64,000 nt of DNA from Gautieria morchelliformis (Eukaryota; Basidiomycota; Agaricomycetes; Gomphales; Gomphaceae), in the NCBI GenBank assembly GCA_015179125.1, contig WHVA01000191.1, positions 62,001-126,000 on the forward strand, in the 5' to 3' direction. A program made the position numbers and the translations under genes. This document shows, piece by piece, positions 57,816-62,870 of the stretch (positions are counted from its first letter, which is position 1; the number at the start of each line of letters is the position of its first letter). Under the pieces are notes generated by a model. It was not told the origin of the DNA and made no database searches. It saw only the letters and a program-made list of their open reading frames with translations.

Positions 57816-58934
57816 CTAGTGCTCGACAACAAATCCATCGGCCAAGCAATCAAATATGATACGAAGCCATGAGCCCGAACAGTATTCGATCTGGTCAAGT
57901 GGATAGTTTGATTTTCTCGATCGATCAAAGTCAACCACCCGCCATTGGTGCTTGTGGCCGTGATAGGGGCAGACAATACTCTCTTGTGTCGTGGGTGCCG
58001 CCACAATATTTCTCCATGCGATGTCCATATGTTCGACACCGAATCGACCCATGTCGATGTATATTTCATGGACATCCGGCCTATAAAAATAAGGTTCTTT
58101 CAGAGACCGAGTGATACTTACAATGTATCCGACGAACTGGATCGTATCCATTGAACCACCTATAGGTAGATGGTCCCCAAGTCGTTCTAGCACTAGAACT
58201 GAAAGAATGGTCTTCTCGCTGCCATTTGGCACTGGAGACTGGACGGTACGAGTTGACTTGGGGAATGAGACCCGCTTATCTTCAGGTGTATGCCTTAGCT
58301 GTGTTTTCTCATTGACATCTTCCCAGCCAACTATTCTAGTCACCAGGTCACCAGGAGAGCATTCGGCGATTGGCTTGGGGTCCCATCTATGGTTCCAGCT
58401 ATCGTTAGAGTCGCCATCATCCTGGATTTGACTGTTCTCCTCTAGATCCTCTTCCTCCTCGTCGTAATCCGCGTCAGACTCTGCCCAGCCCAAAACCTCG
58501 CTATTTGGATCAATTTCCGTTGTGAAAAAGCCATAACAGCGCGCGATGGCTACTCCCTGGATATGCTCCAGTTCTTCGTAAAACCAGACTTCACGAGCCA
58601 GGTCCTCGGAGCGACGTCGACCAGCGACTTTTATTACAAGGGGTGGAAGAGCGTACTGATCGGCGCCATCTATTCTCAGGGGGTAAACCGACCCCACTCT
58701 GCCATACCCAAGTCGGTCCGAGTCTAAGGAAACACGAAGACAGAGGTTGCCTGGAGGCGGAAGTTTGGAGGGTGGACGAACGGGTGGCAGAGCGCCGACT
58801 ACATTAAGCTCTTCTTCTGGGACTATAAGCGTTTCTGCAGACTTTGAAATGCCTTTAGATAGCGTCGATGGGACATGGACACCGTTGACTTTGATGAGGC
58901 CGTCGATGACAAGAGACGAGAAAGAATTCGATGG
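57816..58934 (-). CDS. Kinase-like protein, 3' part of a gene interrupted by a transposon
   Basis: A protein-kinase-fold gene read on the minus strand from a splice acceptor at 58935 (cacag). It has a glycine-rich loop (LGYGRVGSVYP, about 58710), a lysine (PPLVIKVAGRR), EVWFYEELE (helix C Glu), a catalytic loop VEHMDIAWRN (HxDxxxxN) and VVDFDRS where DFG is expected. An acidic insert (DADYDEEEEDLEENS) sits in the N-lobe. An intron at about 58082-58123 splits FVGYI and PDVHEIYIDMGRFG. It resembles the many short kinase-like proteins of Agaricomycetes. The 5' exons would lie beyond the mariner-type element, ending at 62751, but no start is found there, so the gene is incomplete. Confidence 0.65.
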   Translation of the reverse strand, partial: PSNSFSSLVIDGLIKVNGVHVPSTLSKGISKSAETLIVPEEELNVVGALPPVRPPSKLPPPGNLCLRVSLDSDRLGYGRVGSVYPLRIDGADQYALPPLVIKVAGRRRSEDLAREVWFYEELEHIQGVAIARCYGFFTTEIDPNSEVLGWAESDADYDEEEEDLEENSQIQDDGDSNDSWNHRWDPKPIAECSPGDLVTRIVGWEDVNEKTQLRHTPEDKRVSFPKSTRTVQSPVPNGSEKTILSVLVLERLGDHLPIGGSMDTIQFVGYIVSITRSLKEPYFYRPDVHEIYIDMGRFGVEHMDIAWRNIVAAPTTQESIVCPYHGHKHQWRVVDFDRSRKSNYPLDQIEYCSGSWLRIIFDCLADGFVVEH

Positions 58935-58958
58935 CTGTGAAACGGGTTAGGGCACTTA

Positions 58959-59306
58959 CAGCCGTTTGCAGTCAAGTCTGGACTCCGACGCGCGTCGTAC
59001 TTTTTCAGCCGCTTTATAGCTAAACACACCCCCTTGATTTTTCCTTTACAACTAGACGTTATCTCAGCTAGCTTCCTTAATAAAAAACACTCAGAAAATC
59101 ATCATCTAGCCTCTCACGAAGAGCTTTTAGCTCGGGAGGTCGCCGTTCATTGGGGGCCGCAACCAGGCCTCTTGCGGCCCTTGAGGGATTTTTCCAAAGC
59201 TTCTACGCCATTTCACCACACCGGCCCTTTTAGAAAGTGAAGTCCCGGTCCTGACTGGAGCTATCACGAAGAGTTTTTGCCGGTATCTATTTTCTGGTGA
59301 GTGGAA
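58959..59306 (+). repeat. Left terminal inverted repeat
   Basis: Inverted match to 62387-62721. It has an extra aagtctggact of about 11 bp after cagccgtttgcagtc and a few substitutions. The inner end contains ttctggtgagtggaa, a good splice donor shared by both TIRs. Confidence 0.9.
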
Positions 59307-59369
59307 AGTCCTCTTGAGTGGTTTTCCGGCGTCTCATGCGAGTAAGCTTGTCTAGAATTGCTCTGTCCT

Positions 59370-61091
59370 ATGTTGGGAGCAAAGAGAAAAAAGGGCCGTC
59401 CTGCCAAGGTCCTGGTGAGCCTGAAGAACGTGGGAATGGACACTACGATGTTGCGGCCACAGCCACCGGTGTCGGGACCAGTAGCACGAGCTAGACCACA
59501 ACCGACATGGGAATCTGCTAGGGCATCAGTCACCACAAACACCAACGCTGAAATTCAAGCTGGGGAGGCCTTGTTGTCTTTGCTGCAAGGTGATGGAAAT
59601 GCGAGTTCGGCGAGTGCGATAAGGACGACATTGAAGGGTATAGAGGCCGAGCTGGAAAGTGATGCGAAGGCGATGGACAACGATTCAAAAGAGTTAGACA
59701 GTGATATTATGGAGCTGGGGGCCGAGTCTGTACATGGGTCAATTAATTCATTTGACGAGGATGAGGATGAGTCGGCGGTAGAAGTACCTGGTAAGGGGGT
59801 TTCTCGAACTGACATGAGCGGTTTGCTCATGTCGTATAGTCTGGGATATACCATTCCAGGTGCCAACAGGCCCAAAGACAATCGACACACTCAAGATCAC
59901 GTCTGATGCATCCTGGACAAGCGTACAATACCACATCACAGACAAAATGGATATAGCCATGAAGCGGCTGGATTTGTCTTACAAGCTCAGCACCGAAACA
60001 AAAGATGCACCCGCACGCCTCTTGAACACGCTTGGTCACTGGCTTGAGTTAAAGGACAGGGCAACTGCAGTACATGAGGAACTGCTTCAACAGAAGGTTC
60101 CAAAAGCACACAGCAAGAAACTCAAGGATTTTGAGGTAATTTTATTTGACTTATGGCCTAAAGAGCATGGACAGGAGAAGGTGAAGGGTAAAGCAAAGAC
60201 CAAAGGCGATCACTTGAGCAAGAAGTGCAAGCATGGGAATGATAACAGCGACAGTGATAGAAACAGTACCCATGGGCCGGAGGAAGGCCGCAATGGTTCG
60301 AATCAGGCACATTGGGTGCTTGCTTTACAACAGAAATATACTTGCCAGGAGCATGGTGGGGAATACTGCAAGATTGGCTTTGGCGGTGTCCATAACAAGT
60401 TAAAATCCAGTGATTTGAGCTTGTGGGGTTTGTTGCTTGTGAGTAAATCACACAACTTATTGCAGGGCGAGTTTGATCATTTATTCTAGGAACGAGGCAA
60501 AGCTGACAAGGATTTGGAAGAATTGCCCCTGGCCATTGGGCCGCTGGATGCCCGAGTGCCAGCCCGAGGAAGAGGAAGACCAGCCGCAGCTCCAGCTCCA
60601 GCCCCCCCTCACATGCACCTGATATGGCGCCATACAATCTGCCTCCAGGGGGAGTGCCATATCATTACTGGGCACCACCACCCCCGCCACCATATTATGG
60701 CCACTATCCACAGACCCCACGTTCAGAGCCACGGACCAGTGCACAAACACCACGCACGTGGGAAAGTAACCCAAGTTCCGATCTGGAGGAGATTGAGGAT
60801 CCCACACTCTTCCCCCGTGTCGAAGAATGGCTAGCTAAATTGGAGCAGGGTCCACTCGGTCAAGATGGGCATGTCTTCATGCCACATGCCCTGCCACTCC
60901 GAGGACAAGGCTATATTAGGATCTCACAGCTGGCAGATGGGCTCACCGTCCCTGAGATGCTCACACATTGTCCAGGCCTTGTCGAAGGAACCGCCAAGGT
61001 AATTTTGAAGCAGGCAGCGAAAGAAGTAGCTAAAATACGCAAGCATGAGGCCAACGAGAAACACCGTGCCAAGCGTCGTAGGTATCATTGA
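59370..61091 (+). pseudogene. Cargo gene of the TIR element: AT-hook-like, acidic, SAM-like C-terminus
   Basis: ATG at 59370 gives MLGAKRKKGRPAKVLV, with an AT-hook-like KKGRPAK. An acidic stretch leads through an intron (about 59792-59864) to VWDIPFQVPTGPKTIDTLKI, TSDASWTSVQYHITDKM, LDLSYKLSTETKDAP and a basic region. A Cys/His segment (YTCQEHGGEYCKIGFGGVHN) follows, then an intron (60437-60487), ARGRGRP, a Pro-rich part and a C-terminal helical block (LFPRVEEWLAKLEQGPLG; RISQLADGLTVPEML; GTAKVILKQAAKEVAKI) that resembles a SAM domain. The frame changes by one base at a C7 run at 60602-60608, so this copy is probably broken. I recall similar uncharacterised Agaricomycete proteins but cannot confirm a family. 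Confidence 0.65.
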
Positions 61092-61138
61092 GCGAAGCTT
61101 GCCTTCTTGTTAGAAATACAGTAGATACACTCCTATAC

Positions 61139-62313
61139 CTAATATCCACTATGACTGAACCAGCCTTGTGCATCCTTGGCTGTAATGGACCACACAGCGT
61201 TGTGCAAACGTACATATACATCCGTATCGTCTTGTTGTGTCATGCCTACCCGAACCAAGTCACCATCGCGCCTGAGGTGGGCTTTGATCGCTGAGAATGC
61301 CTCTTCTATAGGATTGTAATCCGGCGAGTACGGTGGTAAGAACTCGTACCGCATACCCCTGTGACAATAAAATCAATACGCGAGCTGCCAAAGTACATAC
61401 GCACATACCGCTCCACTATCATTTCCAAAATATCTGGGCACTTGTGAATCTTGCAGTTATCCATCACAATGACAGAATTGGGTCCCGGATACGGGCTCAT
61501 TTGGTCCAGCAACTGCACAATAAATTGTGTGAAGGTGGCCGAGGTGAATGACCCCTCCAGAATCGTAACATACAGTATCCCGTTGATCGTGAGTGCCGGA
61601 AGAATCGAGTACCTGTACCCATTCAGCTAGTCCCCTCGCACGCCACTAATTGCCATCACTCACCTCTTGCCTCGTACAAAACAAGCCTTCCGCAATGCAC
61701 GCTGACCTCGAATGGCCCATGCCCTCCCTCGGTAAGTTGTCCGACGATCGGCCGCACTTTCATCCACAAATACCAGCTGTTCTCGCGAATACTTACCTAT
61801 CCTTGCCACAAAATCTGCATGCTTGAGTGCACTACGCTCCGCAGCCACCCGTGTGAGCTTTACGCAGTCAGAACAGCGCCTCCAAAGCTCTGCAGAGATA
61901 ACATTTACTCACCTTCTTCATTGAGAAACCCGATGCCCGTAATGATCGCCATATAGTAGCGAGAGATATAGTAACACCATGAATGGTTCGCAAAGCCGCC
62001 CGTAATTCATCCAGATAAGTGTCGCAGTTTTGACGCAAGCACCCATGGAGTAGCTGTAATCCAATAGTGAGCATTAGCCAAGAAATACATTGAAGACGCG
62101 CACCTCAATATCCACTGTCCTCAAGGCCCTCCGCTTCCTCCTCGATCCATAATCGTTGACAACCTCACCGGTTCGATGATGCAAAGCCCGGACGCTTTTG
62201 ATCTTATTAACGCTCACTCCACTGTATGCAGAAACCTCGGCGATAGGGAGTACTGAAAGCATACGAATAATCGCCCAGCATAAGTCCTCAGACACCCGAA
62301 TCCCGTTGGGCAT
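61139..62313 (-). CDS. Tc1/mariner-type DD34E transposase
   Basis: The start at 62313 reads [20 protein letters not shown], followed by a helix-turn-helix region ([18 protein letters not shown]) and a second one ([19 protein letters not shown]). Introns lie at about 62049-62098, 61854-61913, 61622-61670 and 61361-61410. The catalytic domain has [18 protein letters not shown] (first D), [11 protein letters not shown] (second D) and [20 protein letters not shown] (E). After splicing, 34 residues separate the second D and the E (DD34E). It ends WFSHSGY at 61139. No disabling change is seen, so it may be active in trans on both TIRs. Confidence 0.9.
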
Positions 62314-62386
62314 GGTGGGCGGAGCTGCGAAACAACGCAAGGCGTGGGAACACTTAGAGAATGTCACTCGAGCCCATAAACCACGG

Positions 62387-62721
62387 TTCCACTCACCAGA
62401 AAATAGATACCGGCAAAAACTCTTCGTGATAGCTCCAGTCAGGACCGGGACTTCACTTTCTAAAAGGGCCGGTGTGGTGAAATGGCGTAGGAGCTTTGGA
62501 AAAATCCCCCAAGGGCCGCAAGAGGCCTGGTTGCGGCCCCCAATGAACGGCGACCTCCCGAGCTAAAAGCTCTTCGTGAGAGGCTAGATGTTGATTTTCT
62601 GAGTGTTTTTTATTAAGGAAGCTAGCTGAGATAACGTCTAGTTGTAAAGGAAAAATCAGGGGGTGTGTTTAGCTATAAAGCGGCTGAAAAAGTACGACGC
62701 GCGTCGGACTGCAAACGGCTG
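62387..62721 (-). repeat. Right terminal inverted repeat
   Basis: Inverted copy of 58959-59306 with a TA immediately outside at 62722. High similarity over the whole length points to recent movement. Confidence 0.9.
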
Positions 62722-62723
62722 TA

Positions 62724-62870
62724 ATTGTCTCCCCAAATCAACGTGCTTACGACGAACAGTCCTGCCTGCATACGTGCAGAGATTATACTTTCTCACGCCT
62801 ACCACAACATCCAAAAACCAAAATTCCTCATTCTCCTATATACACACTAGCTACGCCACTCCTTAGTGGA
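62724..62870. other. Short host flank between the mariner-type element and the LINE frame
   Basis: On the minus strand, gtaagcacg at 62750 is a good splice donor. With the element and one TA removed, it pairs with the acceptor at 58935 to give a 51-nt intron, so the sequence from 62751 on is likely kinase exon. No start codon with an open frame is found before the LINE frame begins. Confidence 0.45.

Follow-up and report, generated by a model that had tools for sequence, protein, structure and literature searches.

A Tc1/mariner (IS630-Tc1) transposon family in the fungus Gautieria morchelliformis was probably built as a two-gene unit, with a second gene next to that of the transposase. The element studied here covers positions 58959-62721 (3,763 bp) of the window, i.e. 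the whole analysed stretch of 64,000 nucleotides from contig WHVA01000191.1 (positions 62,001 to 126,000, assembly GCA_015179125.1). Copies were compared across the genome (122 Mb in 1,113 contigs, the studied element being on contig C217), in which the match counts are lower bounds. Its spliced genes and FunK1-type kinases are in keeping with a mushroom-like basidiomycete. The second gene recurs between the ends of the family and is under purifying selection, and therefore it belongs to the element as a conserved gene: a lasting part of the family, with a protein kept by selection. Its product is most likely an accessory factor of transposition, a reading that we consider reasonably probable, and the conserved gene suggests that a normally one-gene element type can depend on a helper. 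Among transposons, Tc1/mariner elements are the classical example of those needing a single protein, which is why they serve as tools. In a fungal family where selection has preserved a second protein, one may ask which step is beyond the reach of a single one.

The second gene has three plus-strand exons and is convergent with the transposase gene, which has five minus-strand exons. The features of the window element are the following.

58957..58958, no strand: left copy of the TA target-site duplication (within TTA), from the flanks and empty sites
58959 (outer end) to 59306 (inner end), plus strand: left terminal inverted repeat, with the outer tip CAGCCGTTTGCAGTCAAGTCTGGAC common to the family, from a census of the 28-bp tip
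59297..59355, plus strand: possible leader intron of the second gene, with a GTGAGT donor at the inner edge of the arm, predicted and common to subfamily A
59370..59790, plus strand: second gene exon 1 (basic KRKKGRP segment, acidic stretch), from the spliced reading and copy comparison
59870..60438, plus strand: second gene exon 2 (helical segment, C-x2-H-x4-C-x7-H at its end), from the spliced reading and copy comparison
60490..61091, plus strand: second gene exon 3 (Pro-rich linker, conserved C-terminal region; frameshifted here), from the spliced reading
61139..61358, minus strand: transposase exon 5 (catalytic E), from the spliced reading and genome matches
61409..61612, minus strand: transposase exon 4 (second catalytic D), from the spliced reading and genome matches
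61664..61857, minus strand: transposase exon 3 (first catalytic D), from the spliced reading and genome matches
61913..62053, minus strand: transposase exon 2 (winged helix-turn-helix, HTH), from Pfam and the spliced reading
62104..62313, minus strand: transposase exon 1 (start codon), from the spliced reading
62325..62396, minus strand: possible leader intron of the transposase gene, with a GTGAGT donor at the inner edge of the arm, predicted from the sequence
62387..62721, minus strand: right terminal inverted repeat, lacking 12 bp near its tip, from the arm comparison
62722..62723, no strand: right copy of the TA target-site duplication (within TAA), from the flanks and empty sites

Selection was measured as the ratio of nonsynonymous to synonymous substitution rates (dN/dS) by Nei-Gojobori codon comparison of 18 copy pairs, with 200 bootstraps. 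An earlier note on this DNA, made from the letters alone, had proposed purifying selection on the second gene as a check, and it was found between subfamilies. For the main unsaturated subfamily pair, L009 and L050 (on C138), dN/dS is 0.23 in the second gene (0.17-0.29, 420 codons) and 0.14 in the transposase (0.08-0.24, 139 codons). Between L009 and L021 (on C226), the second gene gives 0.12 (0.00-0.19) with a dS past safe correction, and the dS of the transposase is not computable. The changes between L009 and L050 in the second gene number 70, 64 and 132 at codon positions 1, 2 and 3, respectively. Its sense frames shifted by +1 and +2 bases give a dN/dS of 0.97 and 0.97, two of the antisense frames 1.10 and 1.13, and the antisense frame with shared third positions 0.40. 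The distances between subfamilies rank identically in both genes (dN of 0.153, 0.263 and 0.339 versus 0.077, 0.114 and 0.142). A chance nesting of a one-gene transposon with an unrelated frame, the second frame being no gene, would fit the frameshift seen in the window copy and in L010. It is refuted by the present results and keeps practically no probability, as the second gene is open over 530 amino acids in L009 and L018, recurs between the same arms at six loci, and is under selection in its own frame and in neither of the two shifted sense frames.

In the genome, matches to second-gene exon 2 were obtained at nine loci (C217, C372, C674, C737, C632, C138, C743, C226 and C471), eight of which have a family tip or the transposase alongside, C471 being the exception. 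Transposase exons are present in the same copy at seven of them (C217, C372, C674, C737, C226, C138 and C632), and both genes lie between the same arms with a recognisable tip at C217, C372, C674, C737, C226 and C632, the last being interrupted by about 9.5 kb of other sequence. C138 is rearranged, with an arm in the opposite sense and no clear tip, and C743 has the family left tip and the second gene, with no transposase in the 5.9 kb read. At C471, there is a broken copy with two stops and neither tip nor transposase within the 10 kb read (L049). A more diverged piece of exon 1 is located close to a family tip at C937 (L035). Exon 3 also matches a remnant with an arm at C228, and its end alone is kept in four 1.5-kb deletion derivatives (C1081, C728, C748 and C226 at 608 kb). 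Three of these (L014-L016, on C1081, C728 and C226 at 608 kb) also contain, in their interior, an additional piece of arm about 250 bp long. In L018 (C737:23282-27987), both genes are open, and each arm contains an interruption of several hundred bases.

Starting from the transposase, exon 3 was found at a level of at least 81% at nine places among the matches listed. Six of these have the second gene, and the three without it (C453, C201 and C47) are truncated copies with transposase pieces. Therefore, no copy with a whole transposase was read without the second gene, while the earlier note had considered that copies with the same terminal inverted repeats (TIRs) might always lack it. It had also considered a host gene mostly outside the TIRs, and neither of these two outcomes, each named as refuting, was seen. 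No intact stand-alone second gene was found in genome searches with exon 2, exon 3 and two sub-segments as protein and with exon 1 as DNA, in which only the best candidates were scored, and the two matches outside the family are insignificant (E 4.2 and 9.3). This bears on a further explanation, in which the host was the source of the second gene, now a passenger that either hitchhikes or serves the host. Such elements can hold host-type genes, since a sister family described below has a FunK1 kinase at the same place. For the second gene itself, a passenger origin is quite improbable given the lack of a stand-alone host copy in these searches, the selection on it and the ancestry common with the transposase across subfamilies. 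No such selection was seen at the kinase end in the sister family.

The second protein consists, in order, of the basic KRKKGRP segment, an acidic stretch, a helical segment, the C-x2-H-x4-C-x7-H motif, a linker rich in Pro and a conserved C-terminal region bearing a basic tail. In the Cys/His segment, 39 of 49 columns are invariant (five copies, two subfamilies), and 92 of 161 columns are invariant in the C-terminal part. The subfamily B copies L021 and L023 have one stop each in exon 2. At the place of the exon 2 acceptor used in the window copy, L021 has no AG, and thus its exon 2 boundary is shifted by a few codons. The earlier note had described an AT-hook-like segment and a SAM-like end. 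The AT-hook was not confirmed, the GRP core being present in four of the nine copies covering it, with GHP, GCP or SRP in the others. Nor could a SAM fold be shown for the C-terminal end: the model has a predicted local distance difference test score (pLDDT) of 53.5, none of 20 Foldseek matches has an E value of 0.001 or below, and SAM and helix-hairpin-helix folds occur only among the insignificant matches. A profile comparison to PDB gave a best E value of 0.014, for a NifU-like match that covers 38 positions and was regarded as fortuitous. The Cys/His segment also matched a viral contig (L062); this was rejected as chance as well, since the sequence surrounding the match has no further similarity. 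Mushroom proteins of unknown function presumably have similar Cys/His and C-terminal segments.

As a mechanism, the transposase would act on the conserved tips and insert the element at TTAA. Each arm would start one of the two genes, and the arms would double as end sites for the transposase. The second protein would most likely bind DNA or the complex of transposase and ends, and assist in one of the steps of transposition, for instance the pairing of the ends, integration or the choice of the target. By analogy, it may work as mudrB does in MuDR, or as has been proposed for the extra proteins of the ciliate TBE elements. The second protein might instead protect expression, as an anti-silencing factor or a transcription factor on the arms, and not be a transposition helper. 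VANC of the VANDAL elements is a precedent for this. The gene starts adjoin identical arms, and the Cys/His and basic segments fit a DNA-binding protein. This alternative is regarded as unlikely.

Several observations weigh against a conserved accessory factor of transposition. The second gene of the window copy is not intact, as its exon 3 is frameshifted compared to L009 and L018; the same holds for exon 3 of L010. The GRP core is lost in five of the nine copies covering it, no Pfam family was found for pieces of the protein or for the L009 protein (only DSL, insignificant at E 0.2), and both structure models are poor. Within subfamilies, second-gene comparisons that span more than 400 codons give a dN/dS of 0.48-0.72, with ranges mostly including 1, and a 74-codon piece gives 1.10; these values are as for copies decaying after insertion. 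Gene-less relatives have still moved, and therefore the second protein, if needed, acts in trans. In addition, the TBE accessory proteins left the DNA-binding profiles of their transposase unaltered in E. coli (PMC12242761).

The transposase has 322 amino acids, with no stop in the window copy, L009, L010 and L018, and a D-83-D-34-E spacing in these four copies (the spacing being that given for the window copy). In Pfam, the L009 transposase matches DDE_3 (E 3.2e-30) and the winged HTH family HTH_33 (E 2.7e-7), while no match to PDB sequences was obtained at E 0.01. Based on the DD34E spacing and the TA duplication, the element is a Tc1-type member of IS630-Tc1-mariner; its Tc1/mariner marks are the DDE_3-type transposase, DD34E, the N-terminal HTH and the TA duplication. 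The transposase is predicted to cut and paste the element at TTAA with a duplication of TA. In the earlier note, the element had been placed at 58959..62721, with a TA duplication, long matching TIRs of about 340 bp, an intact-looking DD34E transposase and a second convergent gene, each gene starting within about 75 bp of a TIR. The ends (CAGCCG.. and ..CGGCTG) and the flanks (TTA and TAA) agree with this position to the base, and the ATGs are 64 and 74 bp inward of the arms. The second gene is a real three-exon gene, although frameshifted in exon 3 here.

The two arms of 348 bp (58959-59306) and 335 bp (62387-62721) are 97.9% alike over 331 aligned columns. One inverted stretch of 277 nt at 99%, far beyond chance, was found in the window element, and the 12 bp missing near its right tip are present in other copies. 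Across the genome, 48 matches were obtained with a left-arm probe and 42 with the 28-bp tip at three or fewer mismatches, and the reversed control of the tip gave none; the family tip reads CAGCCGTTTGCAG. TTA and TAA were seen at both ends in 12 of the 13 copies viewed, the remaining one, L017, being visible at one end only. When joined minus one TA, the flanks of the window element match unoccupied paralogous repeats with an unbroken junction, the best four over about 200 bp at 90-94%. In an alignment of five empty sites, C725 and C318 read CACTTAATTGTC, as predicted for the empty site from a TA duplication at TTAA, C634 and C384 read CACTTACTCG, and C377 is more diverged. A second empty site is given by the 0.76-kb relative L028 compared to L011, the unoccupied site being TCAA, and a further one by the sister-family element L052 compared to L025 and others. 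Insertion with a TA duplication is thus shown for this group by the empty sites of the window element, L028 and L052. The flanks of the window element (58820-58958 and 62724-62800) belong to a dispersed repeat with more than 10 further matches, so the element is inserted inside another repeat. L027, L028 and L034 (C406, C504 and C198) are gene-less relatives of 0.76-0.78 kb with little beyond two arms joined.

Subfamily A (L009) has 347-bp arms at 99%, and subfamily B (L021) has 336-bp arms at 98%. Their left arms can be aligned with each other only over the outer 127 bp and a 21-bp piece, and therefore arm length and likeness were kept while the inner arm was replaced. This pattern of arms alike within a subfamily, with the inner 200 bp differing between L021 and L009, suggests that the two arms are homogenised. 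The earlier note had proposed that the TIRs act as twin promoters. Arms of about 340 bp that are 98-99% alike in two subfamilies, together with a TATA-like block, support this indirectly, the promoter role itself staying conjectural. Among copies with a transposase or long second-gene sequence, 10 of 11 arms have TTTATA at a distance of about 55 bp from the tip, compared to one of 12 arms among gene-less or gene-deleted copies (counts uncorrected for relatedness). The other eight of the 31 arms, of unknown content, were set aside; four of these have TTTATA. The arms of L027 and L028 are without the TATA-like block of gene-bearing arms. In subfamily A, both arms have a GTGAGT donor at their inner edge, and suitable acceptors precede both ATGs. 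The possible leader intron was not found in L021 and fits subfamily A only. The duplicated arms may thus provide a matching promoter and leader for each gene.

Tc1/mariner elements usually have one gene and short arms, as typical but not defining traits, while the present element has two genes and arms of about 340 bp. Multi-gene Tc1/mariner elements are known in ciliates, and Euplotes Tec arms are about 700 bp long (PMC7325037). The Oxytricha TBE elements have a DD34E Tc1/mariner transposase and extra genes, all three genes with a dN/dS well below 1 (PMC4724952). Their two extra proteins are under purifying selection and accessory roles were proposed for them (PMC12242761; PMC4724952), their presence being called surprising for Tc1/mariner (PMC12242761 / PMC4724952). 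TBE and Tec resemble the present element in the DD34E transposase, the extra genes and, for Tec, the long arms. They differ in having three genes, in the telomere-like ends of TBE and in the site-specific recombinase of Tec. The tip CAGCCGTTTGCAG is not telomere-like, and the second protein has no Pfam match.

In plan, the element is like MuDR of maize, which has two genes with a TIR as promoter of each, and in which integration requires the novel protein encoded by mudrB (PMC8224964); for the present element, TIR promoters are presumed. DDE_3 is the sole significant Pfam match of the catalytic part, and the duplication is TA, unlike Mutator/MULE elements. MuDR (Mutator) belongs to another transposase superfamily with another target duplication. 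PIF/Harbinger elements combine a transposase with a second, DNA-binding Myb/SANT protein (PMC4482050), and differ from the present element in superfamily and in their TWA duplication. No Myb match was found for the second protein in Pfam at E 5, and the duplication here is TA. Among fungi, TIR_1 of Pleurotus ostreatus is a Tc1-mariner element of 1.6 kb with DDE_3, a TA duplication and 214-nt TIRs (PMC4905642), for which the excerpt describes the transposase alone. MarorTcMar-18 of the basidiomycete Marasmius oreades is a TcMar family of 3,972 bp that has given rise to a mobile derivative of 1,120 bp lacking genes (PMC9674265); it resembles the present element in size and may be a relative. In the titles and abstract openings listed in searches of the open-access literature, neither a two-gene Tc1/mariner element in a fungus nor a FunK1 gene inside one was described.

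The sister family has a transposase about 48% identical in exon 3 and the tips TTACACCCGTTTGCAG, for which the best 40 of 292 candidates were scored, all at 99-100%. Its member on C158 (L052:3021-9529, equal to G000:C158:128220-134728) is 6.5 kb long with arms of about 718 bp at 96% and the TTAA habit. Three pieces of the L052 gene convergent with the transposase match Pkinase_fungal (PF17667) above the cut-off, including the HRDVSVGN loop. At least 50 convergent kinase-transposase pairs were counted, based on 149 of the best 150 of 245 transposase candidates and the best 86 of 132 kinase matches. Transposase exon 3 is convergent at 448-865 bp for 50 of these 86 matches, with one more in the same sense. 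In the related loci L054, L057 and L058, no inverted arms were found at E 1e-4 in 7.4 kb, and the frame lists of L057 and L058 contain no evident second gene.

Tentatively, and with somewhat less than an even chance, these elements form a fungal Tc1/mariner branch with a standing slot for a second gene facing the transposase, filled by a dedicated Cys/His accessory protein in one family and by a FunK1 protein kinase in its high-copy sister. If this is true, the FunK1 expansions specific to fungal lineages would have a vehicle in elements of this kind. In Paracoccidioides, FunK1 expansions are described as lineage-specific and enriched in non-syntenic regions (PMC3203195). With its FunK1 gene, the sister family provides a direct source, open to checking, for a gene-family expansion that has lacked an explanation. 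The kinases in Tc1/mariner elements, here and as the 57-kDa protein of ciliate TBE, would be a repeated invention. The C-terminal 158 amino acids of the kinase are open in seven copies (L052:5798-6271, L061 and L068-L072), not all necessarily within arms. For this end, the only part compared, dN/dS is 0.66-1.90 in 20 of 21 pairs, the 21st being without synonymous change. The kinase end is thus under relaxed or diversifying change and not under purifying selection, and the values indicate that the method does not give low values for just any such gene. The kinase end is also retained in the copy on C663 (L061).

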